DNA of 20,207 nucleotides from a virus: positions 1-20,207 of IMG/VR virus record IMGVR_UViG_3300030098_006123. One strand, 5' to 3'. Below the pieces are notes generated by a model that saw nothing but the letters and a program-made list of their open reading frames with translations, was not told where the DNA came from and did no database searches. Below are positions 4,216-20,207 of this stretch, in pieces (position 1 is the stretch's first letter; each line of letters begins with the position of its first letter). The translations under genes and the position numbers were made by a program.

Positions 4216-4216
4216 T

Positions 4217-5706: not shown

Positions 5707-6503
5707 AGCTGGTCAATGTCTTCCCATGTATAGGTGAGGCTAGACTTTTCTTCAAAACTGGAGACTTCTTTCAGTTTTTCTTTTAACGGTTTAACAACAT
5801 TACCGTTTAAGTGTTTATGTATAGCTGCCTGAGCAGTTCTTCCATTAACGCCGTCGTAGCCATCTATGTAAGCAACTTTATGAAGTTCTTCATTTATGGA
5901 CTGATTTAATTTTTTCGTAAGATCTGGTCTCAATTCATGACCGACCTTGACCACCATGTAAAATCCGTTTTTAACCTTATTAAAAACTTCGTCTATGGCT
6001 TCATCGTCTGTTGCGCCTTTTTCATACATAGAGGTAATTTTATATTCAAAATCTACGCCATCCATTACTGTTACCGTAGATTGTATAATATTTACATGCT
6101 CGTCTGGAATTTTGTTAATCATAAGCATGTAGCTGGGCGAAATAGATTGAGCCAAAATAGAATCTAGGGTTTTTTGCAGTTTACTAGAGTAGTCAGTCGC
6201 GGACTCCTCGTCTGCAATGACAAGATAGCCAACTCTTACTTGGTATTCTTCTCTAACCTTGGTGTGGATATCGTCCACACCCTCTTTCCATGGCTCTTCT
6301 CTATATGCTGCGCACCAAGATTCGATGACATAGAATTCGTTTTCTTCGAGATCTTCTGCTTCTACAACAAACACACCCCTATCTTTGAATTTTTCAATTC
6401 TATTAAGAGAGCATCCGGTTTGTGTTTTTTCTTCTTTTTCTGAGAATACACAGTCTTTACATGATGTTGTCAAGCCCTGCGGCTGGTTTTGTTGAAATGT
6501 CAC
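5694..6503 (-). CDS. Cys-motif protein with degenerate GT-A-like region
   Basis: A 269-residue protein in two parts. Residues 15-64 hold four cysteines, C15-x2-C18-x12-C31-x32-C64, which look like a small metal site (SCKDCVF, TGC, ESWCAAYR). Residues about 89-230 look like a GT-A Rossmann core: VRVGYLVIAD, then LQKTLDSILAQSISP and YMLMINK, where LxxxLDSIxxQ is the usual first-helix pattern of GT2 enzymes. No clear DxD motif follows, so it may be an inactive or divergent transferase. The start is GTG at 6503, in a GTGA overlap with the methyltransferase-like gene, and is supported by a strong AAGGAG at 7 bases. It lies directly before a canonical GT2 gene, so a partner or regulatory role is possible. 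Function unknown. Confidence 0.72.
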   Translation of the reverse strand: MTFQQNQPQGLTTSCKDCVFSEKEEKTQTGCSLNRIEKFKDRGVFVVEAEDLEENEFYVIESWCAAYREEPWKEGVDDIHTKVREEYQVRVGYLVIADEESATDYSSKLQKTLDSILAQSISPSYMLMINKIPDEHVNIIQSTVTVMDGVDFEYKITSMYEKGATDDEAIDEVFNKVKNGFYMVVKVGHELRPDLTKKLNQSINEELHKVAYIDGYDGVNGRTAQAAIHKHLNGNVVKPLKEKLKEVSSFEEKSSLTYTWEDIDQLCIE

Positions 6504-6964
6504 TCTCTTTCTCCTTCTATGACTATCCGATAACCATCAAGTCTTTTTTTTGTTACTTTTAATCCCGCATTTTCTAGCTTTGATTGCATGTATTCTAACG
6601 TTACATTGTGTAACCTTACATCCCACGGCTGAGAAAATGCCCCGTGAACTAATTTGTTAAACTCTTCTAAATCAATTTTTTGCTGATAAAACATTTTAGA
6701 GGCTTCGTATGCGTCCGTGCCTCCTATCACAATCTTACCACCTCTTCTAAGCTTGCCTATCCAGTGATTTAATACCTTATCAGCTTCAGAGCTTTCAAGG
6801 TAATCGAGAACATCTTCGGCTATAAATTCGGTACACTCTGCGTCGTCTACTACGTCATCTAAATTTCTAATGTCTACATCTAGACCATCCGGTTTTGTTA
6901 TAGGGTCTATATTTAGATAACCATTTTTTCGGAACGGTGAACCTACAGTTATGCTTACTTTCAT
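6500..6964 (-). CDS. Small SAM-methyltransferase-like protein
   Basis: I start this at ATG 6964, giving 154 residues (MKVSITVGSP); a longer frame reaching 7024 would run into the upstream glycosyltransferase. It shows GYLNIDPIT (15-23), DVDIRNLDDV, then an AEDVLDYL segment, HWIGKLRRGGKIVIGG (about residues 67-82), and a C-terminal LEYMQSKLENAGL. This is the pattern of small class I methyltransferases common in sugar gene clusters, where LxxWxxxLxxGGxxxI is the post-motif III strand. The glycine-rich SAM motif is weak, so the protein may be truncated at its N-terminus or may not bind SAM normally. It could methylate a sugar or a nucleotide-sugar. It begins one base after the upstream stop. Confidence 0.72.
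   Translation of the reverse strand: MKVSITVGSPFRKNGYLNIDPITKPDGLDVDIRNLDDVVDDAECTEFIAEDVLDYLESSEADKVLNHWIGKLRRGGKIVIGGTDAYEASKMFYQQKIDLEEFNKLVHGAFSQPWDVRLHNVTLEYMQSKLENAGLKVTKKRLDGYRIVIEGERE
6511..6516 (-). promoter_or_regulatory. Ribosome binding site deciding the GTG start at 6503
   Basis: AAGGAG with a 7-base spacer to GTG. It is one of the strongest Shine-Dalgarno matches in the window and supports the non-ATG start of the Cys-motif gene. Confidence 0.75.
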
Positions 6965-6965
6965 C

Positions 6966-7976
6966 TTAACCTCTAAAACATACTTTTGACGCTTCATAAA
7001 GCAGATGTTCCCATCTGCCAACAAATTGATCTTCTGAAAATCTGCTTTCTATAGTCTTTCTAGCCTCATTTCCTAATTTCGTGGCCAAATCCTCATCATT
7101 CAGAAGTTCTACTAAATATTCTTCTAATTCTTCTTCCGTCTCCCCTAAAAAGCCGTTAACTCCATGCTCTACTACTTCTGGTATCATGCAGGTAGCTGTA
7201 GACACAACAGCACATCCGCAAGCCATAGCTTCAAGTAAAGAAGTTGGAATAGGTGATATTGTAGAAGTGTTCAGAAATATTCTACTGGTTTGGTAGGCAT
7301 CCACCAATTCCTCTATACTGGATGCTGGTTTCGATAATCCCGGCGTGTCGCCTATCACTCTTGTTGGATATTTTTTTGATACGTTTTGCCATATGTTAAA
7401 ACCGCAGCACCAATCCCTGTTGATCCAATCATTTACCACTGACAGAGCATGGTTCTCTCTTTCTTTTTCTGCTGGCTTAAATAATGTTGTATCTACCCCA
7501 TGAGTAATGACACTAGTATTTGGCGCATCCCACCCCCAAGCGCCAATACTATATTTTGAAATGAATACGTTGATGTCACCCTGCATTGTTCTGGTTTGCT
7601 CTAAAACTTCGGGAGGCCAATAGGGGACTGGAAGCGTATGCTCAAGACTAACCAAAGGAAGATGAAACCGTTTCGCTATTGGTTCGGCCAGTTGGAATTG
7701 ACCAAACTTGTTTTGAGACAAAACTAGATCAAAATCCAGATAGGACGGTATTTGTTTATCTCCCAGTGTGGGATCTAAAAGAGTATAGTTTTCTGGAATA
7801 GCGGCATTGTTCGTATTCCAATCTTTTATACCTTCTGCTCTATAGGCATAGAAATTATGCCCCGTTTTACATAAAAGCGTTTCGTACCTTTCGTGTGTAG
7901 GAAAGGTCAGTATATTCAGAGGGTCATTTATTTTTCTAGCAGACGCTCTGGTTATGGAGGATACCGGACTAAGCAT
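6966..7976 (-). CDS. GT4-like glycosyltransferase
   Basis: A 336-residue GT-B enzyme. The N-terminal domain has DLVLSQNK (83-90) and SLEHTLP (110-116). FISKYS and ITHGVDTTLFKP (157-168) mark the interdomain start of the donor domain, and LLEAMACGCAVVST (247-260) with VVEHGVNGFL (268-277) is the classic GT4 donor loop. Of the usual E-x7-E pair, the second Glu is present (Glu249) but the first position is Ser241, a variation also found in some GT4 members. No signal or membrane segment is visible. AGAGG lies about 8 bases before the ATG. It overlaps the preceding GT4 gene by 8 bases. Acceptor unknown; the N-terminal HTLP region implies a soluble glycan or protein acceptor only by inference. Confidence 0.88.
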   Translation of the reverse strand: MLSPVSSITRASARKINDPLNILTFPTHERYETLLCKTGHNFYAYRAEGIKDWNTNNAAIPENYTLLDPTLGDKQIPSYLDFDLVLSQNKFGQFQLAEPIAKRFHLPLVSLEHTLPVPYWPPEVLEQTRTMQGDINVFISKYSIGAWGWDAPNTSVITHGVDTTLFKPAEKERENHALSVVNDWINRDWCCGFNIWQNVSKKYPTRVIGDTPGLSKPASSIEELVDAYQTSRIFLNTSTISPIPTSLLEAMACGCAVVSTATCMIPEVVEHGVNGFLGETEEELEEYLVELLNDEDLATKLGNEARKTIESRFSEDQFVGRWEHLLYEASKVCFRG

Positions 7977-9093
7977 TTAGTGCCTCTTTTATTACATTGC
8001 CAATCTCCCTATGGGAATATTTCATAGCTCGTTCCAGACCGTGAGTTTTCATGTCTGTTCTGTCAGACTCGTACATGTCTCTCATGGCTTTTCTAAGTTT
8101 TTGTATATCAATAGACGCCCACTCTTCCTTACCTGTGAAGATATCAGATAGTGTATCTAATGCTCCTGTGACGGGTTCTAATCTTGCATCCACCAAAACA
8201 CCGCCCGCTCCTATGTTGGCGCTTTTCCGCAAAAAATCGGCCATACCGCCAGTATTAGTGCATATAGGAGTGTTTCCAAACCCCATCGCGTCAAACGCAG
8301 GGATGCACCATGCTTCCCCATGACTTGGCATAACAAAACAGTCACAAGACTGATGAACCCTTTCTATATCTTTTTCGGACAAATAGTCAGTTATTATAAA
8401 ATCCTCTTTGTAGTCATTGGAAGATGGGTACAGTTTTAACCCTTGTTTAATTTCGTTACAAAGACTCTGAACTTGTTCGGCGCATTGGTCTGCGCTTAGA
8501 CCAGCCTTGTTTGTCTTTATTAAAATTGAAACCGGTTCATTTCTCTCAAACTCTAAATGAAAAGCCGTAACAAAAGCTCTTAAGTTTTTCCTCTTGTTGA
8601 ATTCGCCAACCGTATAAAATATAAAGTTGTCGTCTGGTATTGGAAGGTCAAGCTTTTTATGTCTCTGCGTAAATTTCTCAAAGTCTGTCGCGTGCGGAAT
8701 CACCTTTATAGGCACTGTGATCCCGCTATTAACAGAAGCTTCAACCATTTGATTATTGATAACCCAAGCCTCGTCCATCAGGTTTATTTTTCTAGGCCAA
8801 GTTGAATATTTGAAATTACTTGTTTCGGTAGCATACAAGGCTATGTTCTTTTTGAACTTTGGGTGAAAATCCATTAAGTGAGGAAGAACATGCTGTATGC
8901 AAACATCGCACCCGGAAGATTCCTGATTTTCTAACTCCAACAGTCTTCGAGGAAGTTCCGGCTGTCTGTCGTTAAGTTTTACGGCTCTAGGCACAACCTC
9001 GATGCCAGCGGCATCCATAGACAGTATGTAGTCTATAGCGGCTCTTCCCCAGCCCGTACCTTCTCTATAATGACCTATGTATAAAACCTTCAT
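7969..9093 (-). CDS. GT4-like glycosyltransferase
   Basis: A 374-residue GT-B protein starting MKVLYIGHYREGTGWGRA, with the Gly-rich loop usual after the first strand. VIPHATDFEKF (131-141) and YTVGEFNKRKNL (160-171) open the donor domain, and MPSHGEAWCIPAFDAMGFG (255-273) is the GT4 donor motif. The conserved E-x7-E is E260-x7-D268, a conservative change. I use the ATG at 9093 because it forms an ATGA overlap with the stop of the upstream transferase; a start at 9123 would add ten unlike residues. It is the second of three consecutive GT4-like genes. A cytoplasmic mannosyl- or glucosyltransferase type activity is plausible but not shown. Confidence 0.9.
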   Translation of the reverse strand: MKVLYIGHYREGTGWGRAAIDYILSMDAAGIEVVPRAVKLNDRQPELPRRLLELENQESSGCDVCIQHVLPHLMDFHPKFKKNIALYATETSNFKYSTWPRKINLMDEAWVINNQMVEASVNSGITVPIKVIPHATDFEKFTQRHKKLDLPIPDDNFIFYTVGEFNKRKNLRAFVTAFHLEFERNEPVSILIKTNKAGLSADQCAEQVQSLCNEIKQGLKLYPSSNDYKEDFIITDYLSEKDIERVHQSCDCFVMPSHGEAWCIPAFDAMGFGNTPICTNTGGMADFLRKSANIGAGGVLVDARLEPVTGALDTLSDIFTGKEEWASIDIQKLRKAMRDMYESDRTDMKTHGLERAMKYSHREIGNVIKEALNA

Positions 9094-10727
9094 CTTACAA
9101 TTTCCACCCTTGTTTTTTCCCATTCATTTCTTCTAGCACAAAGACCAGCCATCATATTGAAAGCCTCTTCAATTGTAAATTTTTGATAGTCCGGTTTTAC
9201 AAAAGCATAAGAATCTTCGTTCAGATACATTTCTCCAGTTCCTTGGATGTGTATACCCCAGTTAAGATCTCTCATTAATCTAGATTCAAAATAAGAGTTC
9301 AATCGTTCTGGTTCGCCAAGGACGTTGACTATGAGCCACTGGGCTAATTGTCTAGTGTCAAGATGTTCGGGAACGTCTCTAGGAAACTTATGTATTCTTG
9401 GTGGTGATAGCCATGTTTCTTCACGAGGTCTAATTTCTACAGAGTCAAAATAATCAGACCACATCTTGGCGGTCGCATCCCACTGGTAGTGCTTTTCAAA
9501 AGCAGACCTTGTTTGCTTGCTTTTTTCTTTTCGTTCTTCTTCAGACAAATTGAAAAAATCATATATAACCTTGGCGGCTGCATCGTTATTTGGAACTGCT
9601 CTATTGCAGCCGGTTTCTAGTTCGTTATATAGGGCTTGGGGTTTGATTGGGTAGCCCTCAAGCTTTCTCACTACGCTACTCATTGCCGAGTAATCTACGC
9701 TAGCAACAGGTACTCCACAGGCGGCGGCTTCAACCTGCGGCATCCCAAAACCCTCACTGTTTGCATACTGTATATACAAATCAAAGGTATTAAATATTTC
9801 AGATAGAAAATCATATTCAACACCATTTTGTACGTTGGATAGGCCAGCAGACTTTCCTCCGCAGCGAGGGCATTTTGTTTTGGCGTCACAAAAATACATA
9901 GGAAAGGCGTAATTGCATTGTGGGCAAGAATATGTCACTAGGATTTTGCTTGATAGCCCGTAACGATTTATCAGCTTAGGCAGATCCCATCCCAAATCTG
10001 GATAACTAGTATGACAATACAAAAACACGTCGTTCTTGTCGTACATATCTAAGAATTTTCTAAAGGCTTCAAACAGGTCTGGGAACAGCTTTCTTCTTTG
10101 ATTGCGCATCACTGTTCCAAGTATAAGAGTGTCTGCGTCGAACCCCATTCTTTCTTTATGGGCTTGCTTGTCTTCAACTGGACTATAGATAGCGTGAGCA
10201 GAAGGAGATGCAGTGCCTAAGTAATTGACCTTGCCATTGGACTCATTCTTTAATACCGAACCTCCCCAGTCCGAATAACTAAAAACGGCATCTGCATTAG
10301 AATACGTAGCTATCCACTGTTCGTTTTGTGGTGAGGCGTCTACGGTTGGCATTATAACCCAATTGAACAACCGTCTAAAAGGAGACCTTTCTTGGTAATC
10401 TATCATCCAGAAATCTCTTATGTCACAAACGAAATCTGGCTGAAAATCCAAAAGAACGTTTTCAAATCTCCATTCTCCAAACTGATTGGTTGGAACTGAA
10501 GCGTATTCTTGGTTGCCTGCTAAATCACTATCATGAGGCTGGTTGGGGTAGAATTTCCACAGAATGTCATTATTGCGAGGGTCGCCATCTTTTCCATAGC
10601 TAGCAAATTCAGCAATTTCATATTTTCCAGAAGCATGTAGCCTGCTTAAAACCTCTCTGGCGTATGTTGCATAGCCAGTGTTTAAGTAGGTAGCCTCTGA
10701 GCAGAATAGAACTCTCTTTTTTCTCAT
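9090..10727 (-). CDS. Large GT4-like glycosyltransferase with inserted zinc ribbon
   Basis: A 545-residue protein, longer than a normal GT4 (about 350-400). The N-terminal domain begins RVLFCSEATYLNTGYATYARE. The donor domain starts near residue 200 (LGTVMRNQRRKLFPDLFEAF) and has NSEGFGMPQVEAAACGVPVA (323-342) with an intact E-x7-E. Between these, residues 268-289 carry CPQC and CPRC (Cys268, 271, 286, 289, with Cys280 between), a zinc-ribbon-like insertion. About 110 extra C-terminal residues (from 435) follow the GT fold and match nothing I recognise. Its start overlaps the sigma factor stop as ATGA, so it is the first sugar gene after the transcription factor. The enzyme class is firm; the role of the zinc ribbon and tail is unknown. 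Confidence 0.9.
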   Translation of the reverse strand: MRKKRVLFCSEATYLNTGYATYAREVLSRLHASGKYEIAEFASYGKDGDPRNNDILWKFYPNQPHDSDLAGNQEYASVPTNQFGEWRFENVLLDFQPDFVCDIRDFWMIDYQERSPFRRLFNWVIMPTVDASPQNEQWIATYSNADAVFSYSDWGGSVLKNESNGKVNYLGTASPSAHAIYSPVEDKQAHKERMGFDADTLILGTVMRNQRRKLFPDLFEAFRKFLDMYDKNDVFLYCHTSYPDLGWDLPKLINRYGLSSKILVTYSCPQCNYAFPMYFCDAKTKCPRCGGKSAGLSNVQNGVEYDFLSEIFNTFDLYIQYANSEGFGMPQVEAAACGVPVASVDYSAMSSVVRKLEGYPIKPQALYNELETGCNRAVPNNDAAAKVIYDFFNLSEEERKEKSKQTRSAFEKHYQWDATAKMWSDYFDSVEIRPREETWLSPPRIHKFPRDVPEHLDTRQLAQWLIVNVLGEPERLNSYFESRLMRDLNWGIHIQGTGEMYLNEDSYAFVKPDYQKFTIEEAFNMMAGLCARRNEWEKTRVEIVR

Positions 10728-11239
10728 TTGTTATGTTCTTCAAGCTTATTAATTATATCTGTAATTTTATTCTTTAAGGCGTTTCTAGTGCAAGACAGTA
10801 TCTCGCATATCTCAGAGTTAGTGTAGTTTTCCATCTTCTTGGTTATTATGAACAATTCCTGCTCATTCAGTTTAGTCAGATAGCTTGCAATATTATCTTT
10901 GTCAAGATAGTGTCTGCCATTTAATGAGCTATTAAGTGCTTTTGTATCAAACACAACCTTGTTCTTTTTACTATGTTTTTTTACAAAGCTGGATATTGCA
11001 TTTTTTATACACACCGTTGCGTACACTGGAAACTTAGACTTTTTAGGATCATGTTTTCTTATAGATTTTAATAACCCTACTAAGCCAACCTGAATACAAT
11101 CTTCTAGTGTATAGTGTTTTGACGTGTCTTTAAAAAATAAAAGAGCTTGAGAAACTACCAGCCCGTAATTATTACGGATCAGTTGTTCTTCAAGCTCTTC
11201 TTGATTTTTTTGAGTTACTCTGTCTAATTCATCACTCAT
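10724..11239 (-). CDS. Small sigma-70-like RNA polymerase sigma factor
   Basis: A 171-residue protein with two sigma domains. Region 2 spans about residues 18-88: LIRNNYGLVVSQAL, then LEDCIQVGLVGLLKSIRKHD (45-64), the core-binding helix pattern, and FPVYATVCIKNAISSFVKK (70-88), which corresponds to the -10 recognition helix. Region 4 is a C-terminal helix-turn-helix, LNEQELFIITKKM followed by TNSEICEILSCTRNALKNKI (140-159). Regions 1.1 and 3 are absent, as in ECF-sized or phage sigma factors. It would bind host RNA polymerase and redirect it, probably to middle or late phage promoters. It overlaps the SSB stop by 8 bases and the first glycosyltransferase by 4. The target promoter motif is unknown. 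Confidence 0.87.
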   Translation of the reverse strand: MSDELDRVTQKNQEELEEQLIRNNYGLVVSQALLFFKDTSKHYTLEDCIQVGLVGLLKSIRKHDPKKSKFPVYATVCIKNAISSFVKKHSKKNKVVFDTKALNSSLNGRHYLDKDNIASYLTKLNEQELFIITKKMENYTNSEICEILSCTRNALKNKITDIINKLEEHNK

Positions 11240-11606
11240 CTTCTTGTTGAGAATTTTCTCTATCTGACGGGGGTGGGTTGAAGAGCTTGAATTCTTTAAC
11301 CCTAAAACGAGTCGAAAACTTCTGTTTGCCTTCCTTGTCTGTCCATTGATTATTCCTTGCGGAGGTTACAACATCTACAATATCTCCCTGCTTGCAATAC
11401 CTATTGATGGTAGAGGCTCCGCTATCCCAAGCTTCAAAATCAAAGTAATTTGTTGTCTTCTTCTTTTCGCCACCTTTTTCTTTGCGATACTCTGTTATTG
11501 CAAGGGTAAAGGTAACAAGCTCGGTATTTTCTAGTTTTATGAGTTTCGGGTCTCTTACAAGCCTGCCGATAAAACGACAGTAGTTGGAAATTGAGCTGGC
11601 AGACAT
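11232..11606 (-). CDS. ssb: Single-stranded DNA-binding protein
   Basis: A 124-residue SSB (using ATG 11606). An OB fold covers residues 8-110: NYCRFIGRLVRDPKL at the start, VTFTLAITEYRK (31-42), NYFDFEAWD (53-61), INRYCKQGDIVDVV (67-80), NNQWTDKEGKQKFSTRFRV (85-103). The last residues (DRENSQQEDE) form a short acidic tail, as in SSBs that recruit partner proteins, though it lacks the bacterial DDDIPF ending. The upstream ATG at 11657 is less likely because it has no ribosome site and its first residues do not fit the family; AAGGA stands 6 bases before 11606. It would coat single-stranded DNA at the fork. The gene follows the window's only intergenic gap, so it probably has its own promoter. 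Confidence 0.9.
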   Translation of the reverse strand: MSASSISNYCRFIGRLVRDPKLIKLENTELVTFTLAITEYRKEKGGEKKKTTNYFDFEAWDSGASTINRYCKQGDIVDVVTSARNNQWTDKEGKQKFSTRFRVKEFKLFNPPPSDRENSQQEDE

Positions 11607-11612
11607 CCGTGA

Positions 11613-11617
11613 TCCTT
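11613..11617 (-). promoter_or_regulatory. Ribosome binding site deciding the SSB start
   Basis: AAGGA with a 6-base spacer to the ATG at 11606. The alternative ATG at 11657 has nothing comparable, and it also falls inside the proposed promoter region. Confidence 0.7.
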
Positions 11618-11648
11618 CAGTGCAGGGTGTTGTAAAGTTCCTACATCT

Positions 11649-11677
11649 AATATACATAAAGAGTCAATGTTTTGCAA
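11649..11677 (-). promoter_or_regulatory. Candidate sigma-70 promoter for ssb and downstream genes
   Basis: The gap 11607-11677 is the only non-coding stretch of note. Read on the minus strand it has TTGCAA (4/6 to the -35 consensus), a 17-base spacer and TATATT (5/6 to the -10 consensus). Transcription would start near 11642, about 36 bases before the SSB ATG. A TTGACT inside the spacer is an alternative -35 but has no -10 at the right distance. The match is moderate and AT-rich DNA gives such matches by chance; position before SSB is the stronger argument. Confidence 0.45.
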
Positions 11678-13252
11678 TCAAATCTCAACAACTTTATCGA
11701 CTACAAAACCGTCCCTATTCTTAGAGGCATTACAAAATAATAGGACATTATTTCCCTCATATAGTATATTTTTATATTCTTTCCATGATTCGCTAAATAT
11801 TGCCACGTTATCAAGCTCTCCGGTGTTATCTTCTACTGAGAGAAAGGCCATTTCTTGGCCGGGGTTTTTACCGCCTTTTGTTGTCCATTTTCTTATGGCG
11901 TTGAGGGTTACAGCTATTTTCATCTTCCCTTTCTTGCCTTCTAGACAATCTCTACAGGTGGTGTCAGACATGCTGATGTCACTAGATTCTATCTTTGAGT
12001 ATGTTACCGCCACCCCAAGATAGTTTTCTTCTGTACCTATTACCCACCGAGGGTCGTCTTCAAGAGAGGACGGTGGGTTTTCCAAATGCAGAACCAAGTC
12101 AAGTATAACCTCTGTTCTTTTGCTGTTATGAGCCGCTCCCCCTTCCTTCTTTACAGGAGACGCTGCTTTTAGGAGGTCAAGAATGTTGTCATGGTTCTTA
12201 TAGTTTTCTTTGATCCAGACAACCTCTTTCGACGTTAGTTTTTGCCATGTATCAAAGTCGTCTAGCATTTTCAGCCTAGACAGTTTTGTGTGCGAAAACA
12301 TACCCGTGGATATCATGGCTATCGCCAAAGGGGAGTACAGTAGATCTCCTATTGAAACCAGCGTCTCGTACCAAGACATCTCGTGAATTTTTTTGCCGAT
12401 TAAATTTTCGGCTTCTGGCAAAATATCTTTGAATTTATCTATCTGTTTCTTGCCGATAGTCTTCAGATCAGAAAGTCCGAAGTGAATTTTCTCATCTATT
12501 ATACTGGTCGTCTCATTAAGGCTTTTTAATGAAGGAGGGTGTATTGAAACACCGACAGACTTTGCGTCACGTACAAGCTCTCTTATTTCTTCTTGAGGGT
12601 CTGGCTTACCATGTGCGTAATATAGGTAGTTACAGTAAAACTCCAATGGATGATGAGACTTAGCGTAAGCGCTCCAATAACCACAAATAGCGTAGCTAAC
12701 AGCATGGGACTTATTAAAAGCGTAACGAGAGGACTTCTCGATCCATGAGAATATCTCTTCTGCTGCTTCTTTAGAAACAATGGCCGCATCTATGGCACCT
12801 TGTACAAACCTCTTTTTAATCTTGGCCATCAAATCGGCTTTTTTCTTACCGATAGCCTTCCTTAAGTCATCAGCTTGCTGGAGATTGAATCCAGCTATCT
12901 TTTGGGCTATCTCCATAGACTGTTCTTGATAAACCAAAACCCCTTGTGTATTTTTAAGTATTGGCTCAAGAGAGTCGTGAATATAGACTATTTCTTCTGA
13001 CCCGTTTTTTCGGTCTACGTAATGCTGCGTCATAGACTTTCCGTCTACAATCGCCTTAAGACATCCGGGTCTAATAATAGAAACAAGAGCGGCCAAGTCT
13101 TCTATGTTTCTTGGTTTGACTCTTTTTGACCAAGCTCTACCCAAACTACTTTCTAGCTGGAAAACCCCCTTGGTTTTTCCGTCACAGATTAAGTCCCAAG
13201 CATCTTGGTTGTTGAAGTCTATTTCAATAGGATCAAAGGTGGATGTTTCCAT
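11678..13252 (-). CDS. dnaE: DNA polymerase III alpha, C-terminal part (fingers, tail, OB fold) of a split enzyme
   Basis: This 524-residue protein continues the C-family polymerase just where the upstream piece (14115-16034) stops. Residues 25-62 (KTKGVFQLES, then LAALVSIIRPG) and 90-150 (LKNTQGVLVYQEQSMEIAQ, RKAIGKKKADLM) match the fingers of DnaE; RYAFNKSHAVSYA (176-188) and HPLEFYCNYL follow. The remainder covers the helix-hairpin-helix-like region (GLSDLKTIGKKQI, 259-271) and ends in an OB fold (444-524, VTLNAIRKWTTKGGK, FLSVEDNTGELDNVAIF). The catalytic aspartates are not here. The ATG at 13252 is preferred over a TTG at 13270, since AAAAGG lies about 9 bases upstream of it; it overlaps the exonuclease gene by 20 bases. 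It should be active only in complex with the N-terminal piece. Confidence 0.92.
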   Translation of the reverse strand: METSTFDPIEIDFNNQDAWDLICDGKTKGVFQLESSLGRAWSKRVKPRNIEDLAALVSIIRPGCLKAIVDGKSMTQHYVDRKNGSEEIVYIHDSLEPILKNTQGVLVYQEQSMEIAQKIAGFNLQQADDLRKAIGKKKADLMAKIKKRFVQGAIDAAIVSKEAAEEIFSWIEKSSRYAFNKSHAVSYAICGYWSAYAKSHHPLEFYCNYLYYAHGKPDPQEEIRELVRDAKSVGVSIHPPSLKSLNETTSIIDEKIHFGLSDLKTIGKKQIDKFKDILPEAENLIGKKIHEMSWYETLVSIGDLLYSPLAIAMISTGMFSHTKLSRLKMLDDFDTWQKLTSKEVVWIKENYKNHDNILDLLKAASPVKKEGGAAHNSKRTEVILDLVLHLENPPSSLEDDPRWVIGTEENYLGVAVTYSKIESSDISMSDTTCRDCLEGKKGKMKIAVTLNAIRKWTTKGGKNPGQEMAFLSVEDNTGELDNVAIFSESWKEYKNILYEGNNVLLFCNASKNRDGFVVDKVVEI

Positions 13253-13916
13253 CTGCGAACGCCTTTTCAAATTTTACCTTGGGAGCTATACGACGATGCA
13301 GTTTCATAAACGCAATCATTAGATTTGCCGTGTCTTTAACATCTTGCATGGCATCGTGAGCGTTCTCTTTGCTCATACCCAACAGGTCTCTCATTGAATC
13401 CATGCTTAAGGATTTAATGTCTGGGTTGTTTTCCATCCACATCCAAACGGTATCCAGCATGTCAATCTTGTGGATTTTATTAAACAGAGTCTGCTTTCCG
13501 GTCTTTTTGTCAACAGGGCCATGCTGCTCGCACAACCTCTGAACGATGGGAAGATCAAACCCTATAATGTTATAACCAGCAGGTATAGGGGCAAAGTAAG
13601 GTGTCTTTTTCCAATTGTATTTGTTTACAAAGTTAGCAAACTTTTTCCATACCGTTTTGGCAGAGGGGGCTTTGGCCAGTTCTTCTCTTGTCTTGCCGTT
13701 GACAGCAAGTGCCTCGTCTTCTATTGGATCAACCCCCATCTCTATAGCCTTTTCATCATCCAGTTCTGGACGTATTAAGCTTTCAAAATAGCCTCCGGGT
13801 TGGATCGTTAGCTTTCTACCGTGTATAGCAACGGCAGCAATCTGCACTGGCTGTGTTTTGTGAGGGTTTCTTGACCCAGTTTCAAAGTCGAAAACAATTA
13901 TGTCTTTATAGTTCAT
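13233..13916 (-). CDS. dnaQ: DnaQ-like DEDDh 3'-5' exonuclease (proofreading type)
   Basis: A 227-residue exonuclease with the full DEDDh set: Asp10 and Glu12 in VFDFETG, Asp121 in GYNIIGFDLPIV, His187 and Asp192 in HDAMQD. The fold covers residues 5-205. The final 20 or so residues are basic and could contact another protein. It probably removes misinserted nucleotides for the split polymerase whose two genes flank it. No clamp-binding motif is obvious. Its start overlaps the 71-residue gene as ATGA, and its end overlaps the C-terminal polymerase gene by 20 bases. A role in host DNA degradation or RNA trimming is possible but the location favours proofreading. Confidence 0.92.
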   Translation of the reverse strand: MNYKDIIVFDFETGSRNPHKTQPVQIAAVAIHGRKLTIQPGGYFESLIRPELDDEKAIEMGVDPIEDEALAVNGKTREELAKAPSAKTVWKKFANFVNKYNWKKTPYFAPIPAGYNIIGFDLPIVQRLCEQHGPVDKKTGKQTLFNKIHKIDMLDTVWMWMENNPDIKSLSMDSMRDLLGMSKENAHDAMQDVKDTANLMIAFMKLHRRIAPKVKFEKAFADGNIHL

Positions 13917-14128
13917 CTCAATCTCTTTTTAATTTCAAAAAATTTGTCTATGGCCTTGTCCATGTCATCATACAATTCGCTGAACTTATTTTTAAAATGT
14001 TCGCAATGTACTTGATACATAGTCTTTGATAATGTTTGTCTTCTTATTGCAGAAATAGACAGTGACTTATAATCCTCATGACCGCCTCTTTCTAACTTAC
14101 CTATTATTTTTTCTCTATGAGTTGACAT
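13913..14128 (-). CDS. Hypothetical 71-residue basic protein between the polymerase halves
   Basis: I do not recognise this protein. It starts at ATG 14128 (MSTHREKIIG) and overlaps the stop of the N-terminal polymerase gene by 14 bases; the frame is open further up to 14203, but that part lies wholly inside the polymerase gene. It is rich in Lys, Arg and Glu, with no cysteine pair, signal peptide or membrane segment. The second half (about residues 40-71, HFKNKFSELYDDMDKAI and FFEIKKRLR) looks like an amphipathic helix or short coiled coil. A translated product is supported by the ATGA overlap with the exonuclease start and by absence of another use for these bases. Its position suggests a link to the polymerase complex; this is inference only. 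Confidence 0.6.
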   Translation of the reverse strand: MSTHREKIIGKLERGGHEDYKSLSISAIRRQTLSKTMYQVHCEHFKNKFSELYDDMDKAIDKFFEIKKRLR

Positions 14129-16034
14129 TGTTTGATTCCAGTTCTTCCTTGACTCCCATAATTTTATCCAAAAGCGAAACTCCCAATATATCAAACTTGA
14201 CATGGCCCATGGACTCTAAGTCATTCATTTCCATGCCAGCTATTTTTTCCGTTCCTTTTTTATCTCTCACCATGGGGCAAACTTCATCTAGACTGTGAGA
14301 AGATATAACAACTCCAGCCGCGTGTTTTCCTTGAGACTTAAATGTGCCTTCTATTCTCATCGCCTGCTCAAACAATTTAGAGTAGTCTCCCTCAAGACTT
14401 CCATCGTCGTTTAGTCTGCAATAATCTCTCAGCACTTCCGGTTGGTTTATTAACGTCCATTTAATTACGGAAGATTCGTCCATATCCGCTAGCTGGTCTG
14501 AGATCTCATGCTCATGAGGCAGGCTTTTTGTAATCTTATTCATCTCGTCATAGCTACATGCCTCGTTCATTCTCAAGACTTCTTTCAAAGCACTTCTTCC
14601 CTGAAGTCGTCCAAATGTAACCATTTGGCCCACTTTGTCGGTTCCGTACTTTTCTCTGATGTAGCCGATGACAGAATCTCTTTTTGAGGCTGGTACGTCG
14701 ATATCAATATCCGGCAAGGAAACATGCCCTCCGGTGTTACGACCAGCATTATAGAACCTCTCGAAGATTAGTCCGTACTGAATTGGATCTACCTGAGTAA
14801 TACCTACCAGATACGAAACCAAACATCCTGCCGCAGAGCCTCTTCCCGGCCCCGGAAGCCATTTCTGATCCTTAACGCTATTAACTATGTCTCGCACGAT
14901 AAGAAAATAGCCTGACAGATTAGCTCCGCTAATAACTTCAAGCTCCTTCTTGATCCTGTCTGCATAAATTTGCTTGTCCGTTTCTGTGGCAATTTTGTTA
15001 GAACCAACCAGTTTTGATTCCCAGCCATTCCGACACAATTGTCTTAGATGATCCTCTTCAGTGCTGGATTCTGGACAGGAAAACTTGGGTAGCATAGGAG
15101 GCCCAAGAATATTATACTCCTCACACATGTCTGCAATCTGTTCCGTTGCTTCTATCTCATGTGGACGGTGTATTGCGGCTATTTCTTCAGGTGTAGGAAT
15201 ATGGAAGTTATTGGACTTAAGAAACCCGCTAAAGCCAACATCTTCATTATTAGCGACCTTCTTCTTGATCTGTCGTAACGGCGTCCTCATGGCAGAACAC
15301 AATAGGATCATATGATCTACCGCATCCTGTTTCTCTGGATAGTGAGAGTCTGCCGTGGCTACTGATTGAAAACCGTATTTTTTGGCTATATATCTCAACC
15401 CCTGAGCTACCAGTCTGGCGGCTGGGGAGTTCTCTTCATCTATACATTGGATTTCGATAAAGAAATTTTCTTTGCCAAAGATATCCCTGTAGCGGTTTGC
15501 TAGAGCTAAAGCTTTTTGATCCCAATTAGAATCTATATGCTCTTTTACTTCTTCTTCTGTAGAAGCCCTGTATGCAGCTTTTGGGTCAGTGAAAATAACA
15601 TTCGCTAAATCGCTCCCAAGATGTCCGCTAAACGTAACCAGATTACCATCGGCATACTCCGAAAGAATATCGAGATCAAGCCGAGGCTTAAAATAGAACA
15701 GATCCTCATCATTACTTCTGGAGGTCGCTTCAATCAACCTCTTCCACCCCTCCTTATTTTTAGCCAAAACTACTAGATGACTTAGAGACCTATTACTCGA
15801 ATCTCTAATAGTGGCGTCCTGCTGACTTAGATAAAACTCACAACCCAAAATAGGTTTAACGGATTTATCTTGGCAGGCTTTAGTGAAGGATACAGCACCG
15901 GAGATCGTCCCATGGTCTGTGATGGCACACGCTTTGTAGCCAAGCTCTGCACAGCGAGAGGCGACCTGAGAGGGCTTTGAGAGGCCGTCTAGGAGGCTGT
16001 AATGCGTATGCAGATGTAGAGGGTTCCAACTCAT
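14115..16034 (-). CDS. dnaE: DNA polymerase III alpha, N-terminal part (PHP and palm) of a split enzyme
   Basis: A 639-residue protein. The PHP domain opens with HLHTHYSLLDG (7-17), then AITDHGTISG (37-46), KPILGCEFY (60-68) and ATADSHY (226-232); metal-site residues look intact, so PHP may be an active nuclease or phosphatase. The polymerase core follows: GPGRGSAAGCLVSYLVGITQ (395-414), FERFYNAGR, the catalytic LPDIDIDV with Asp442 and Asp444, KRDSVIGYIREKYG, GKHAAGVVIS (569-578), and VKFDILG with the third Asp615. The protein stops 24 residues after this Asp, before the fingers, with no intein sequence. A complete alpha subunit is about 1,150 residues, and the two parts add up to 1,163. The ATG at 16034 overlaps the RecB-like gene as ATGA. 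Confidence 0.95.
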   Translation of the reverse strand: MSWNPLHLHTHYSLLDGLSKPSQVASRCAELGYKACAITDHGTISGAVSFTKACQDKSVKPILGCEFYLSQQDATIRDSSNRSLSHLVVLAKNKEGWKRLIEATSRSNDEDLFYFKPRLDLDILSEYADGNLVTFSGHLGSDLANVIFTDPKAAYRASTEEEVKEHIDSNWDQKALALANRYRDIFGKENFFIEIQCIDEENSPAARLVAQGLRYIAKKYGFQSVATADSHYPEKQDAVDHMILLCSAMRTPLRQIKKKVANNEDVGFSGFLKSNNFHIPTPEEIAAIHRPHEIEATEQIADMCEEYNILGPPMLPKFSCPESSTEEDHLRQLCRNGWESKLVGSNKIATETDKQIYADRIKKELEVISGANLSGYFLIVRDIVNSVKDQKWLPGPGRGSAAGCLVSYLVGITQVDPIQYGLIFERFYNAGRNTGGHVSLPDIDIDVPASKRDSVIGYIREKYGTDKVGQMVTFGRLQGRSALKEVLRMNEACSYDEMNKITKSLPHEHEISDQLADMDESSVIKWTLINQPEVLRDYCRLNDDGSLEGDYSKLFEQAMRIEGTFKSQGKHAAGVVISSHSLDEVCPMVRDKKGTEKIAGMEMNDLESMGHVKFDILGVSLLDKIMGVKEELESNNVNS

Positions 16035-17053
16035 TTTTTGTCTGTATCCGTATCCGCTAACCTTCCACCGCCGTCACCATAGGCGGCTAGTTTACTGACA
16101 TCACCATGTTCAGCAACAACTTTGGCCACGCCCTTTTTTCGTACTTCGTCACGCATATATTGACAAAGGCTTTTCTTAGCTCCGGGCTTGTACGGTTCGC
16201 TAAATTTACAAAGTTTTTGACACTTCCAATGAGAATTACCATCAGAGAGTAGTTTTGGTCGTTCGCATTTTTTTATTTGTAGGAACTTCTTCTTTAATAT
16301 CTGTTCCGCTTTTTCATAATCGTCGTCATCAAAACACATGGAAAATAAACCACCGGAGTTGATATAGAATATACTCACAGAAAATTCTGCGTCTGGATAC
16401 ATATTCCTTAAGGCATAATAATAAAGAAGGAGTTGCGTATCTTTCTGGAGAGACTCTAGCGTCTTCTCCTCTCCCGTAGCCCAATTGATTCTTTTTCCAG
16501 TCTTGTAATCAAGTATCTCAAAGTAGGATTCGTCATGCTGGATGATTACATCGACCGTACCTTTTATTGATAGATAGCCCTCTATCTTTTCTTTTCCAAC
16601 CCTGTAAGAGTATTTTGCCCAAGGTTTTTTAATTTCAATATCAAAGAACTTTTCAGTGGCAAATATGTTTTGGTTTCTTGGGTCACAGAAGCCGTCTTGA
16701 TATGCAACCGCCTTCTCTGTCCATTTAGTACATGTTTTTAGATCTGCTTTGGTTAGTGTTACTTCTGGGAAGTGTTTTTGATAATAATCAAACGCCTTCT
16801 CTGTGATCTTTGGCAGATTATTGCAGTCTTGAACTTTGAACCTTCCGAGTTCATCATCGGTAAAGCTTTTGTTACCACGAAGCGTACAGAGCTTCTGATC
16901 ACCAAGAAGCTGTAAAGCCTTATGGACAATAGTTCCCATCAAAGCTTTTTTATTAGTTTTATCCTTCAGGCCAAGATTGTACTGAAGGAAATATTTCTGT
17001 TCGCAGAATTCTAGCGTTCCTAGACTACTGCTTCTGTGGTAGCAAACTATCAT
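16031..17053 (-). CDS. RecB/Cas4-like PD-(D/E)XK nuclease, possible Fe-S cluster
   Basis: A 340-residue PDDEXK_1-type nuclease. The motifs are in order: SSSLGTLEFCEQKYFLQY (8-25), GTIVHKAL with His44 (40-47), GTVDVI with Asp168, EILDYKTGK with Asp182 and Lys184 (179-187), and QLLLYYYAL with Gln207 (207-215). Cysteines at 17, 278, 282 and 297 match the AddB/Cas4 layout of one N-terminal and three C-terminal ligands for a 4Fe-4S cluster, though the spacing CxxxC-x14-C differs from the common form. The last 40 residues are low in complexity and end in Asp/Lys. There is no helicase domain. It likely trims DNA ends during recombination-dependent replication or degrades host DNA. It overlaps the upstream gene by 29 bases. 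Confidence 0.88.
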   Translation of the reverse strand: MIVCYHRSSSLGTLEFCEQKYFLQYNLGLKDKTNKKALMGTIVHKALQLLGDQKLCTLRGNKSFTDDELGRFKVQDCNNLPKITEKAFDYYQKHFPEVTLTKADLKTCTKWTEKAVAYQDGFCDPRNQNIFATEKFFDIEIKKPWAKYSYRVGKEKIEGYLSIKGTVDVIIQHDESYFEILDYKTGKRINWATGEEKTLESLQKDTQLLLYYYALRNMYPDAEFSVSIFYINSGGLFSMCFDDDDYEKAEQILKKKFLQIKKCERPKLLSDGNSHWKCQKLCKFSEPYKPGAKKSLCQYMRDEVRKKGVAKVVAEHGDVSKLAAYGDGGGRLADTDTDKK

Positions 17054-17588
17054 CTAATGGATCTAACTCTGTTGTGATTAGGTTATACATATCTGCATGT
17101 GCAATAAAGCCATTGTTTCCTTCTGGCTCACCCTTTTTGATAAATCTAGCTTCTTCAAAATAACTATCCCTGTCTTTTTGTCCAATGATCCACGCTCTTT
17201 TAGGTTCCCTACCGTCAAACTGGATACTGACAAAAATATATAAATCTAATCCCTTCTTATCAGCTTGATGTCTGCTGGAAGCAGCAACAGAAACATCATA
17301 AAAAGGCTTAGGCTCAACTGTTCGTCTTTTAGTTTTAACCTCAATCCTTCTGTCGGATTTTGATAGATCATGACCGTACTTAGCATCACCTTCATCGTTA
17401 CTGATGATGTCGGCGTCAATGTAAGCGGCGACCGCCTCTTCTCCCAAGTAGCCAGCAAAGTTGCCCTTACCCTTGAGTATAGAGTTGTTGATTTGACCAA
17501 GAGCTTTTGCTTTGGCCTTGGCGGATTTTACCATCTCTTTAGTAAAGGGAATCTCTACTATGAGTCCTTCTTTTTTAACCATCCCCAT
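17025..17588 (-). CDS. Small PD-(D/E)XK nuclease-like protein
   Basis: A 187-residue protein with a restriction-endonuclease-like core. YLGEEAVAAYI (47-57) supplies the first Glu, YGHDL has Asp74, and RIEVKTKRR holds Glu83 and Lys85 of the E-x-K motif. A following strand with LDLYIFVSIQF (about 115-125) fits the fold. Such proteins occur in phages near replication genes; some are Holliday-junction or DNA-damage nucleases, but I cannot place this one. Two starts are possible, ATG 17588 or ATG 17582; GAGAG stands 7 bases before the second and only 1 base before the first, so 17582 may be the real one. It overlaps the kinase gene by 25 to 31 bases. Confidence 0.75.
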   Translation of the reverse strand: MGMVKKEGLIVEIPFTKEMVKSAKAKAKALGQINNSILKGKGNFAGYLGEEAVAAYIDADIISNDEGDAKYGHDLSKSDRRIEVKTKRRTVEPKPFYDVSVAASSRHQADKKGLDLYIFVSIQFDGREPKRAWIIGQKDRDSYFEEARFIKKGEPEGNNGFIAHADMYNLITTELDPLDDSLLPQKQ

Positions 17589-18325
17589 TCTCTCAATACT
17601 TCCATTACCTTAATATTTGTTTCGTTTATGTCAAAGTTTTGATTGTCAATTACCACATCAAAGTTTTCGTAGCTATCTAATGCGGTTTCGCTGGGATGCG
17701 CGTCTTCATGAGGTTTTCTTGTTAGCCGTATAACTTTACCGCCAGCCTTTTGAATTGCCTCAACCTCGTTTTCAAACCGCACGTCTGGAACGATGGCAAG
17801 CTGTGTTCCGCTTGCGATGATTTGTTTCATGCACAGGTCTACCCATACCTGATCTTTTATCTTTCTACAGATGTTAGTACCAAAATACTGTAAGAATTCT
17901 CTGGCCGACATAAAACCTTTTGCTTTTTCTTCGAGTCCCGGCATCCTTTTCCACTTAATATTGGTGGGACTGTTCTTGTCTTCGTCTGTTCCAAAGCACT
18001 GTTCTTCAGTTAGGTCAAATAATTGCATCGCAATGATTTTTAATGGGTCAGCGAAACTGAACGATCTCACATAAGGCCATATCATTGCGGAAGCAAATTC
18101 TGTAAATGCGGAGTCTCGTCTCTCAAGATCTATTTCGCCAACACCCTGAACTTCTTCTCCATCGTCGTTTATCTCAACAGCGTTAACAATTACACGACCC
18201 TGTTCGTTCATCATGAACGTTTCTATAACATCATGATACCGCATTTGGTATCCATGAATAAAGTTGGAGGTGGTCGTTTTGCCACTTTGTTTTACACCAG
18301 ACAAACCGAGGATATGTTGTTCCAT
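17558..18325 (-). CDS. Deoxynucleoside monophosphate kinase
   Basis: A 255-residue P-loop kinase similar to T4 gene 1 type dNMP kinases. The Walker A is GVKQSGKTT (residues 10-18). SFSFADPLK (88-96) is the usual substrate-side segment following a long helix, and REFLQYFGTNICR (142-154) is a family hallmark. PDVRFENEVEAI (180-191) with KVIRLTR (197-203) gives the LID region arginines. The insertion at about 38-66 is rich in acidic residues and beta strands, a feature of the phage versions. It would phosphorylate dNMPs recycled from host DNA to feed replication. The TAA stop of the primase shares one base with its ATG, so translation is coupled. Confidence 0.9.
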   Translation of the reverse strand: MEQHILGLSGVKQSGKTTTSNFIHGYQMRYHDVIETFMMNEQGRVIVNAVEINDDGEEVQGVGEIDLERRDSAFTEFASAMIWPYVRSFSFADPLKIIAMQLFDLTEEQCFGTDEDKNSPTNIKWKRMPGLEEKAKGFMSAREFLQYFGTNICRKIKDQVWVDLCMKQIIASGTQLAIVPDVRFENEVEAIQKAGGKVIRLTRKPHEDAHPSETALDSYENFDVVIDNQNFDINETNIKVMEVLREWGWLKKKDS

Positions 18326-19431
18326 TATGAAAATCCCTTTAGCTGTGGTTTTATTTCCGTTTCTATCTGTTCAACCGTCATATCGCCAACATCTTTGTGA
18401 CTGTATTCCGGTTCAATGATATTGAATATTCTTGAGCATTTGTCTTTGATTGAATTCCTAGCCTTTTTTCCGGCTTCATCATTGTCTGTTAATATTACTA
18501 AGTTAAAAGCACCGGAAGTTTCTAGCGTCCTACATTGAGAGTCACTTAAGCTAGAACCAAATATACCAACAGAGTTTTCCAAGCCAGCTTCATGAAGTCT
18601 CCAAACGTCTCCTTGGCCTTCCACCAAAATTACTGTTTTTGTTTCTCTGATTTTTTCCTTGGCAAGCCAGTAACCATAAAGGTAGGAACCAGTATGAAAA
18701 TGTTTAGAGTTAATCCACTTCCTACCATTATAGTCCTCGTTTTGCACCCTTCCGACGCATCCAACCATGTAGGAAAAGTCGTCATCATAAACAGGTGCCA
18801 CTACCCTATTATACATTGGCTTGTTCCTGTCTAGACACACTCCCACATCAAATTTGTCTAGAATATTCTGATCGAACCCACGGTTAATATAGTAAGAAGC
18901 TGGTCTGGTCAAGGACTTCCTGACATCTTCCCGTGAGATATTTGTACTACTCTTCTTGGATTTTCTTTCTACGGCTTTTGTAAATTTATCGAAGACGCTG
19001 TATTTTTCGTCTTTTGAAGCCTCTTTGAGATCTTCGGCAGATGTCTCAACAAACTTGACGGCAAATTTTATAACCTGCGGAAATTTTGATTTGTTTTTAT
19101 ATTTCTCGGACGACTGCATCAACGCTTGAACCAAACCAAGCATATCATGAGAATGTGACTTTTCACACCCTCTTGTCCAGCATCTCCACAGTCCATACAT
19201 CTCATCATCGGGGTCAGTGCAAATGGAAAACGCCGAAGGGTTATCCGCTCCTTCATGTATGGGGCAAGTCATTGATATGTATGATTCGTAATCAGCATAG
19301 GCTATGTCAAAATATTCTACCAGATCCCTAGCCTTGTCTGCAAGTTTTTGATTTAAAACTATTTTCTCTTGACGAGATAGCGCTTTATTAAAACGGCTTT
19401 TCTTCGTCACTGATTTGGTGGTCAAAACCAT
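18325..19431 (-). CDS. dnaG: DnaG-type primase (zinc finger and Toprim)
   Basis: A 368-residue primase. The zinc finger is CPIH (Cys56, His59) and CWTRGC (Cys84, Cys89), the CHC2 type. The Toprim domain has VILVEGQGD with Glu271 and LVILTDNDEAG with Asp316 and Asp318, and a later KDVGDM motif. The segment SYYINRGFDQNILDKFDVGV (179-198) is the RNA-polymerase-like N-terminal part of the catalytic core. The protein stops shortly after Toprim, so the DnaB-binding C-terminal domain of bacterial DnaG is missing, as is common in phage primases. AAAGGT lies about 5 to 7 bases before the ATG at 19431. It overlaps the helicase gene by 44 bases, long for this window. It makes RNA primers for the helicase-polymerase machine. 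Confidence 0.93.
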   Translation of the reverse strand: MVLTTKSVTKKSRFNKALSRQEKIVLNQKLADKARDLVEYFDIAYADYESYISMTCPIHEGADNPSAFSICTDPDDEMYGLWRCWTRGCEKSHSHDMLGLVQALMQSSEKYKNKSKFPQVIKFAVKFVETSAEDLKEASKDEKYSVFDKFTKAVERKSKKSSTNISREDVRKSLTRPASYYINRGFDQNILDKFDVGVCLDRNKPMYNRVVAPVYDDDFSYMVGCVGRVQNEDYNGRKWINSKHFHTGSYLYGYWLAKEKIRETKTVILVEGQGDVWRLHEAGLENSVGIFGSSLSDSQCRTLETSGAFNLVILTDNDEAGKKARNSIKDKCSRIFNIIEPEYSHKDVGDMTVEQIETEIKPQLKGFS

Positions 19432-20207
19432 CTTTACCTTTTCTATTCTTTAACAGCAGTTCATTCTTTGTTTCGTTTTCTACTACTTTTCCGATTTCAC
19501 CCTGCATGGAAATATTGATGTAATCATAACTATCTGACAACCCTCCCCCATGTCTGGCAACAATAGGTACAAGTTTTCTATTACCGCTTTTTCCTTGATC
19601 TTCTGCTATCTCTTCGTCAGACTTACTTTTAAAGATGCTAAAGCTACTACACAGCCAGATCAATCTGTCTGATCCACTTACTACCTCGGTTGATTCTTTT
19701 GTAACCCCGTCTCGGTTAAGCTGGACAAAAGCAAGGCACGGAACGTCGTACTGAACGGTGAAGTTGTGTAGCTGAGTAATTTGAAAACCCAGAACCTGAA
19801 ACTCAGCAAGATTGTCATTTATCTGACCTGAGTTCATCAGCTTCAGATAGTCATATATCAACATGCAGTCCTTGGTTCTTCCGTTCTCATCAAAGCCTAC
19901 ATTCTTTATGATCCATCTTCTTATTATGGATAATGTTTCCTCAAAAGCTTTACCGGCAATACTTATATAATCAAAAGGTATATCTTTGAGTTTTTCAGAA
20001 GCCTGATGTACCCTTTCTTTTCCGCCAGATATATTTGCAAAGTTTCCGGTAGAGATATCATTTATCTCGATTCCACTAAAGTTGGCAAGAAGTCTATTCC
20101 AATGATCCTCTTTGGACATTTCTGTGTCCAGCATTAATACTGGCACGCCTAAGTTTCCAGCGATATGCATGGCAAAGTTATCTGCCAGCATACTCTTACC
20201 AGTTTTT
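19388..20207 (-). CDS. dnaB: DnaB-family replicative helicase, C-terminal RecA domain, partial (N-terminus beyond window end)
   Basis: The frame is open at the right edge, and reads K-T-G-K-S at the edge, the end of the Walker A loop. VLMLDTEMS follows, the helicase motif 1a with its Glu. CMLIYDYLKLM is the Walker B region, FVQLNRDG matches DnaB motif QxxR region (SQLNR), and VVSGSDRLIWLCSS with GNRKLVPIVARHGGG is the motif 4 and arginine-finger area. A hydrophilic tail of about 35 residues closes the protein. It would be the hexameric 5'-3' fork helicase, interacting with the primase whose gene follows. The N-terminal domain and the first half of Walker A lie outside the window. Confidence 0.93.
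   Translation of the reverse strand, partial: KTGKSMLADNFAMHIAGNLGVPVLMLDTEMSKEDHWNRLLANFSGIEINDISTGNFANISGGKERVHQASEKLKDIPFDYISIAGKAFEETLSIIRRWIIKNVGFDENGRTKDCMLIYDYLKLMNSGQINDNLAEFQVLGFQITQLHNFTVQYDVPCLAFVQLNRDGVTKESTEVVSGSDRLIWLCSSFSIFKSKSDEEIAEDQGKSGNRKLVPIVARHGGGLSDSYDYINISMQGEIGKVVENETKNELLLKNRKGKDGFDHQISDEEKPF

Follow-up and report, generated by a model that had tools for sequence, protein, structure and literature searches.

The 20,207-base virus record IMGVR_UViG_3300030098_006123, analysed over its whole length and called the window below, carries a replication operon in which the α subunit of a C-family (DnaE-type) DNA polymerase III (Pol III) is encoded by two separate genes. All operon genes are listed on the minus strand, in the order DnaB-like helicase, primase, deoxynucleoside monophosphate kinase, an unassigned gene, PD-(D/E)XK nuclease, N-terminal polymerase piece (N), small protein (S), exonuclease (X), C-terminal polymerase piece (C) and SSB. 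The polymerase genes and the two genes between them are:

14115..16034, minus strand: N chain, Pol III α PHP and palm/thumb, 639 amino acids, with D442, D444 and D615 (PF02811, PF07733; aspartate columns of the alignment; solved DnaE chains matched)
13913..14128, minus strand: S, conserved small protein, 71 amino acids (18 further loci aligned; no family match)
13233..13916, minus strand: X, DnaQ/epsilon-type DEDDh 3'-5' exonuclease, 227 amino acids (PF00929; phrog_192 "DNA polymerase exonuclease subunit")
11678..13252, minus strand: C chain, Pol III α fingers with HhH and OB, 524 amino acids (PF17657; AlphaFold2 model; DnaE structure matches)

Neighbouring genes overlap by 14 nt (nucleotides; N/S), 4 nt (S/X) and 20 nt (X/C), which is the pattern expected of translationally coupled genes.

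An earlier reading made from the letters and open reading frames of the window (the sequence-only reading) had proposed that α is split between palm and fingers, with N ending 24 residues past the third catalytic aspartate, and had named a hidden Markov model search of both pieces against DnaE as a check. In the Pfam search, N matched the PHP (1e-40) and DNA_pol3_alpha palm (6e-71) families, and C, whose start is an ATG at 13252 or a TTG at 13270, matched DNA_pol3_finger (6e-48), in agreement with the proposal. N and C together thus have the PHP, palm and fingers domains of a C-family (DnaE-type) enzyme; the window polymerase departs from that type in not being a single polypeptide. The two pieces occupy adjoining spans of one phrog_405 DNA polymerase profile of 1190 positions (42-614 for N and 622-1071 for C) and are therefore complementary, with little missing between them. 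When aligned with E. coli α through solved DnaE chains, N reaches residue 565 and C starts at 574. The third catalytic aspartate is D615, 24 residues before the N end at 639, and it aligns with E. coli D555; the E. coli catalytic residues are D401, D403 and D555. In the alignment of relatives, these positions are aspartate in 140/141, 141/141 and 140/140 rows, and all three lie on the N chain. RYAFNKSH, the Y-(C/A)FN site, is unbroken in the C piece, as had been noted. The pieces complement each other; the last ~87 residues of the E. coli protein have no aligned counterpart in C (a C-terminal tau-binding domain is a feature of DnaE-type α). The claim of an active site built from two polypeptides holds as far as the C chain provides the fingers, but every catalytic aspartate is on the N chain.

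Nine PHP positions, taken to be metal ligands, retain the window residue in 121-144 of 137-144 rows, with several of them lost in some rows, and the PHP domain may be catalytically active in most relatives. A group of N chains of ~540 amino acids (L241, L243, L257 and kin) does not have profile positions ~117-228, part of PHP.

The AlphaFold2 model of the window C chain has a mean pLDDT (predicted local distance difference test) of 90.3, and DnaE enzymes head its structural matches: 5lew (Z score 21.6, 3.3 Å over 320 residues) and 5fku, in which it aligns with E. coli α residues 566-1073 of 1160 (Z score 21.3, 8.8 Å over 456 residues). To place the break in a complete chain, we can refer to L041, a natural uninterrupted homologue of 1144 amino acids, whose model (pLDDT 92.6) matches 5lew with Z score 43.9 and 4.0 Å over 878 residues and 5fkw with Z score 36.4 and 3.8 Å over 851 residues. 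The break maps to coil 631-639 of this model, between helix 618-630, which belongs to the N chain in split phages, and helix 640-647, with which the fingers chain starts. Since the break falls inside a coil of the model, the cut would lie in a linker between domains. Linker length at this position varies among unsplit DnaE proteins.

The cyanobacterial DnaE is encoded by two genes, dnaE-n and dnaE-c, with a split intein, and the break is at Y-(C/A)FN. In the window, neither N nor C matched an intein family at E ≤ 0.001 in a profile library search, no Hint halves were found at the break, and the break is not at Y-(C/A)FN; the earlier statement that no intein is present was thus borne out. The same library does detect inteins in relatives, two of them only below the curated cut-off, and a split intein at the palm/fingers break was rejected on the grounds that relatives' inteins match while the window pieces do not. 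No Rfam intron family was found in the window, nor in any other source, so this search is without a positive control; the sole match was snoRNA-like and scored 22.4 bits, where the gathering score is 43, and a group I or group II intron was rejected. Read-through or recoding of the TAG stop of N was rejected because a TAA follows six codons downstream.

In some relatives, mobile elements interrupt the polymerase elsewhere. In-frame inteins are present at RPG|C in L043 and, by reading, in L057; L053 and L159 have a split intein at FNK|S or FNR|S, with a DUF559-type gene between the halves in L053, and L108 has one at GRG|S. Other genes lie between split-intein halves in relatives. Hint was over the Pfam cut-off in L053 and L159, while Intein_splicing was below it in L043 (E 2e-8) and L108 (8e-5), where the splice junctions were placed by reading. 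A palm break of a different, non-intein kind lies just before the LPDID motif (LPDIDVDFP) at L068:7296-8211 and L072:6596-7831, with a LAGLIDADG gene in between; the following piece carries an extension of ~75 amino acids that looks alike in both. None of the RPG|C, FNK|S and GRG|S inteins or LPDID interruptions of relatives is seen in the window.

Relatives were collected by scanning viral contigs. The N query retrieved 71 loci and the C query 15; a scan with a mixed alignment recovered 574 relatives or more and contributed the 80 best, a sample that leans to closer ones, and further loci came from scans with uninterrupted and odd-type queries. After repeat contigs had been removed by a contig-name list, 219 distinct viral contigs remained, of which 188 show both sides of the junction. 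The others are 23 contigs with an N end but without a C start on the locus (including L035), 7 that are cut before the junction and 1 with a C start only. The palm/fingers junction is split in 171 of the 188 informative contigs and uninterrupted in 17; when N proteins sharing 90% identity are collapsed to one, 114 contigs are left, 107 split and 7 uninterrupted. All 171 split loci have X between their two halves, so that the gene order sought in viral contigs was found widely. A second contig, L073, has C and X proteins identical to those of the window. The 17 uninterrupted contigs include L071, which is distant and outside the clade, six contigs of the L119 type (L119, L268-L272), and L108, L159, L194 and L228, which have split inteins elsewhere or an apparent one (L194, by appearance). 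One contig, L063, has a broken N gene at 3205-4933 without the DxD stretch, intact in kin such as L037, which looks damaged or misassembled.

In the annotated phage collection, 1349 records match the N chain, the best match of each being under 60% identity and the best among 40 listed 35.2%. No close cultured relative was found there, though records very near the window may be absent from that collection. The five records checked for gene structure by open reading frame (ORF) or annotation (L089-L093) all have a single polymerase gene. The terminase of the sister contig G001 has a best match of ~24% identity over 97% of its length among the 12 records listed. A scan of genome contigs gave one distant relative (27% identity), and a viral scan for basal relatives returned just one contig, already in the set.

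The sequence-only reading had noted two complete genes between the halves, and both are there; what it missed is that one of them is an exonuclease. The active-site residues D, E, D, H and D of X are invariant in 127-131 rows of the alignment of relatives, as expected of the DEDDh class. X and C are separated by at most 30 nt in 150 of the 171 split loci and by more than 100 nt in 20, while the N-X spacing ranges from -19 to 2729 nt with a median of 182. Even in L035, a locus outside the 171 where the fingers gene is ~7 kb from the palm gene, X is still next to C. S, which had no family match in Pfam or PHROGs searches, is conserved in 18 further loci that were aligned, and it also adjoins X upstream of the uninterrupted dnaE of L041 and L159. 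Between the polymerase halves of L123 (8652-10444), ORFs resembling glutamate dehydrogenase and uracil-DNA glycosylase can be seen (labels from reading of translations). Given the extra genes in this and other loci, the gap tolerates cargo, yet X stays. The pattern C-[GDNSKH]-C occurs within the first 70 residues of 99 of 173 fingers chains (for example L037, L051 and L079; the 12 shown are all CGC) and may be a metal-binding element for docking, at the N-terminus that the split created in the fingers chain. The window fingers chain is without it.

Where the gene is uninterrupted (L041, L107, L108, L159 and kin), S-X or X precedes dnaE and does not lie within it. With uninterrupted phage DnaE as the root, the trees nest the clade's own uninterrupted genes among the split ones, on branches with support of 84-99 in the SH-like approximate likelihood ratio test (SH-aLRT), and the sister of the uninterrupted rows is a split locus, L248. 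A single clade of split rows was rejected by the approximately unbiased (AU) test with p values of 0.031 and 0.019 on two trees; the hypothesis had been suggested by an earlier tree, so these tests were not blind. The first tree, with a single uninterrupted member, gave an unresolved fork. All trees except the first were short searches, the outgroups are distant, L136 and L035 entered by their N part only, and L119 is in one tree, outside both AU tests. The six contigs of the L119 type, with an identical chain of 854 amino acids that misses much of PHP, represent yet another arrangement: the polymerase is unbroken through the palm and most of the fingers side, and in the five that are not cut inside S (L119:6977-12734, L268, L269, L271 and L272), this stretch is followed by S, other genes, X and finally an OB piece of 175 residues. 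L270 is cut inside S. The pieces are complementary to the residue (profile positions 16-357 and 358-527). Since S-X sits in this gap too, the same cassette flanks two different breaks.

The nesting of uninterrupted genes inside the split group makes the split look old, with one lineage apparently re-fused, and we infer that it was reversed once. The split would have originated by insertion, or by complementary loss, around the exonuclease cassette, with re-fusion coming later; the three arrangements would follow from duplication and complementary loss, or from relocation of the S-X cassette. The sequence-only reading had regarded an uninterrupted dnaE in relatives as evidence against its proposal. 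Such genes do exist, but their position within the split group points to re-fusion and not to an artefact.

Both halves of the polymerase are under purifying selection, as the median ratio of nonsynonymous to synonymous substitution rates (dN/dS) is about 0.07: from pairs with unsaturated dS only, out of 60 tried for each gene, it was 0.068 for N (16 usable pairs), 0.079 for X (14) and 0.066 for C (37). Twenty long contigs (71-244 kb) were searched for other replication proteins. The fingers family was found in 20/20 and the palm family in 19/20, the exception being L073, which begins inside S. PolA and PolB (PF00136) were each found in 0/20. The β-clamp domain PF02768 was not found in these 20 contigs either, which have no completeness rating and may be fragments; presumably the host supplies the clamp, or the phage has one of another kind. 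Terminase-type matches in seven of eight long contigs point to tailed phages.

Taken together, these data make it likely that the DnaE-type Pol III α in a tailed-phage clade known from metagenomic data consists of two polypeptides that fold separately and bind one another without a covalent joint. The non-covalent assembly is suggested by the conservation of both halves, the operon structure, the lack of a joining element and the lack of another polymerase in the contigs searched. The N (palm) chain would supply PHP and all catalytic aspartates; the fingers chain, with HhH and OB, would close the active site over the nucleotide. Since the exonuclease gene lies between the halves and runs into the beginning of the fingers gene, the N chain, the exonuclease and the fingers chain probably come from coupled translation and assemble into a single replicase. 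A stronger version, which we consider conceivable but would not favour, is an obligate three-chain replicase in which the exonuclease bridges the palm and fingers chains; fission would be ancestral, the fingers would often have gained an N-terminal element, and an in-frame re-fusion, occurring once, would have put the exonuclease outside. A bridging exonuclease would explain why X is in the gap of 171/171 split loci and of the L119 type.

Several observations weigh against a two-chain α. At this junction, 17 of the 188 informative contigs have one chain. All relatives in the clade are metagenomic, the pairs behind the dN/dS medians are non-independent and many are saturated, and the absence of PolA and PolB is weak evidence in records that are unrated for completeness and may be fragments. 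In addition, the host replicase might perform part of phage DNA synthesis. Alternatively, host Pol III would copy the phage and the pair would have an accessory role, as has been suggested for jumbo phages with a minimal split Pol III; in favour of this, PF02768 was not found in the 20 long contigs and the end of E. coli α has no aligned counterpart in the C chain. The pair nevertheless shares its operon with genes for helicase, primase, SSB and exonuclease, its catalytic residues are retained and no PolA or PolB was seen, so that an accessory role seems unlikely to us. The sequence-only reading had named a second polymerase gene as a threat to its proposal; no PolA or PolB that could make the pair dispensable was found in the 20 long contigs.

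The pieces could also be joined after all, by protein trans-splicing or by RNA splicing of the S-X stretch. In relatives, this polymerase does contain inteins, some of them split, with genes between the split halves. However, no intein or intron family was detected, only ~15-25 residues lie beyond the conserved sequence on either side of the break, and X is a conserved gene that occurs upstream of uninterrupted dnaE as well, which makes joining very improbable. That the break is an assembly or sequencing artefact, or that the genes are decaying pseudogenes, is more improbable still and can practically be set aside: there are metagenomic contigs only and the N gene of L063 looks damaged, but the same break recurs in 171 contigs (107 clusters at 90%), selection is purifying, and L073 has identical C and X proteins. 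The concern about an artefact voiced in the sequence-only reading is contradicted by the recurrence. With regard to history, the uninterrupted genes might be ancestral and the split might have arisen once within the group, without re-fusion. Every outgroup is uninterrupted and distant, the first tree did not decide, and several of the nesting branches have moderate support (84-95 SH-aLRT). Because the larger trees nest uninterrupted genes in split ones, both AU tests reject a single split clade and L248 groups with the uninterrupted rows, we regard this history as a doubtful, though still credible, alternative to re-fusion.

Naturally split polymerases are already known, and what is surprising here is the constant exonuclease in the gap together with the probable re-fusion. 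Like the window polymerase, the cyanobacterial split DnaE is a C-family replicase in two genes, but the window has no intein, its break is in the palm-fingers linker and the gap holds an exonuclease gene. Bacillus phage Finn and Moorella phage MTATph1 both have a phage C-family polymerase in one chain, unlike the window; in Finn the exonuclease is the next gene, following the polymerase gene and not interrupting it. Fractured genes with split inteins were reportedly described by Dassa et al. in 2009: genes of phage type in two parts, separated by a nuclease gene. The breaks in L053, L108 and L159 look of that kind; the palm-fingers break differs in having no intein.

A survey of bacterial Pol III α describes, in the part of its text available, intein-split cyanobacterial enzymes and fragments that usually come from frameshifts (PMC3919608). 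A phage parallel in the available text of another account is the T4-like gp43A/43B polymerase of Aeromonas phages 25 and 44RR, with a seg endonuclease gene or an untranslated spacer in the gap; gp43A and gp43B of phage 25 co-purify and have polymerase activity (PMC2988022). That replicase is also made from two genes, but it is B-family as described there, whereas the window enzyme is C-family, has a proofreading exonuclease in the gap and recurs in 171 contigs. Group 2.2 jumbo phages, according to the portion of the account available, have a minimal split Pol III α encoded by distantly located genes, beside PolB, with Mg binding assigned to the C-terminal part and the two proteins thought likely to reconstitute the enzyme (PMC7824862). 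This too is a phage C-family α made as two proteins. As far as that portion goes, the window differs in having PHP, palm, fingers and OB in one operon, catalytic aspartates in the N part and no PolB found. A survey of bacterial polymerases from 2026 has no mention of a split α in its available part (PMC12926913). In titles and abstracts of the open-licence literature (subscription papers lie outside this search), no published account was found of the palm/fingers break, its fixation, the constant gap exonuclease or the re-fusion, which is in line with the earlier suggestion that the break point had not been described.

The split is a widespread trait across a large group of bacterial viruses known solely from environmental DNA. 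If the two-chain reading is correct, polymerases of the C family can withstand an interruption next to their active site and be reassembled from modules. The phages would then offer a ready two-part replicative polymerase for biochemistry, and a natural series (split, apparently re-fused, split elsewhere, with inteins at three further sites) for testing gene fission and its reversal. Annotation may label such split replicases as truncated genes.

The remaining assigned genes of the operon are as follows:

11232..11657, minus strand: SSB, 20 nt after C (PF00436, phrog_44)
16031..17053, minus strand: PD-(D/E)XK nuclease, directly upstream of N with a 4-nt overlap (PF12705)
17558..18325, minus strand: deoxynucleoside monophosphate kinase (PF21448, phrog_139)
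18325..19431, minus strand: DNA primase, Toprim (PF13662, phrog_47)
19388..20206, minus strand: DnaB-like helicase, cut by the contig end (PF03796, phrog_19)

Downstream of SSB, a small sigma-like gene is followed by glycan genes, and window positions 470-10727 hold a long run of glycosyltransferase-like and sugar-nucleotide-like genes that is partly kept in relatives; these labels come from ORF reading.

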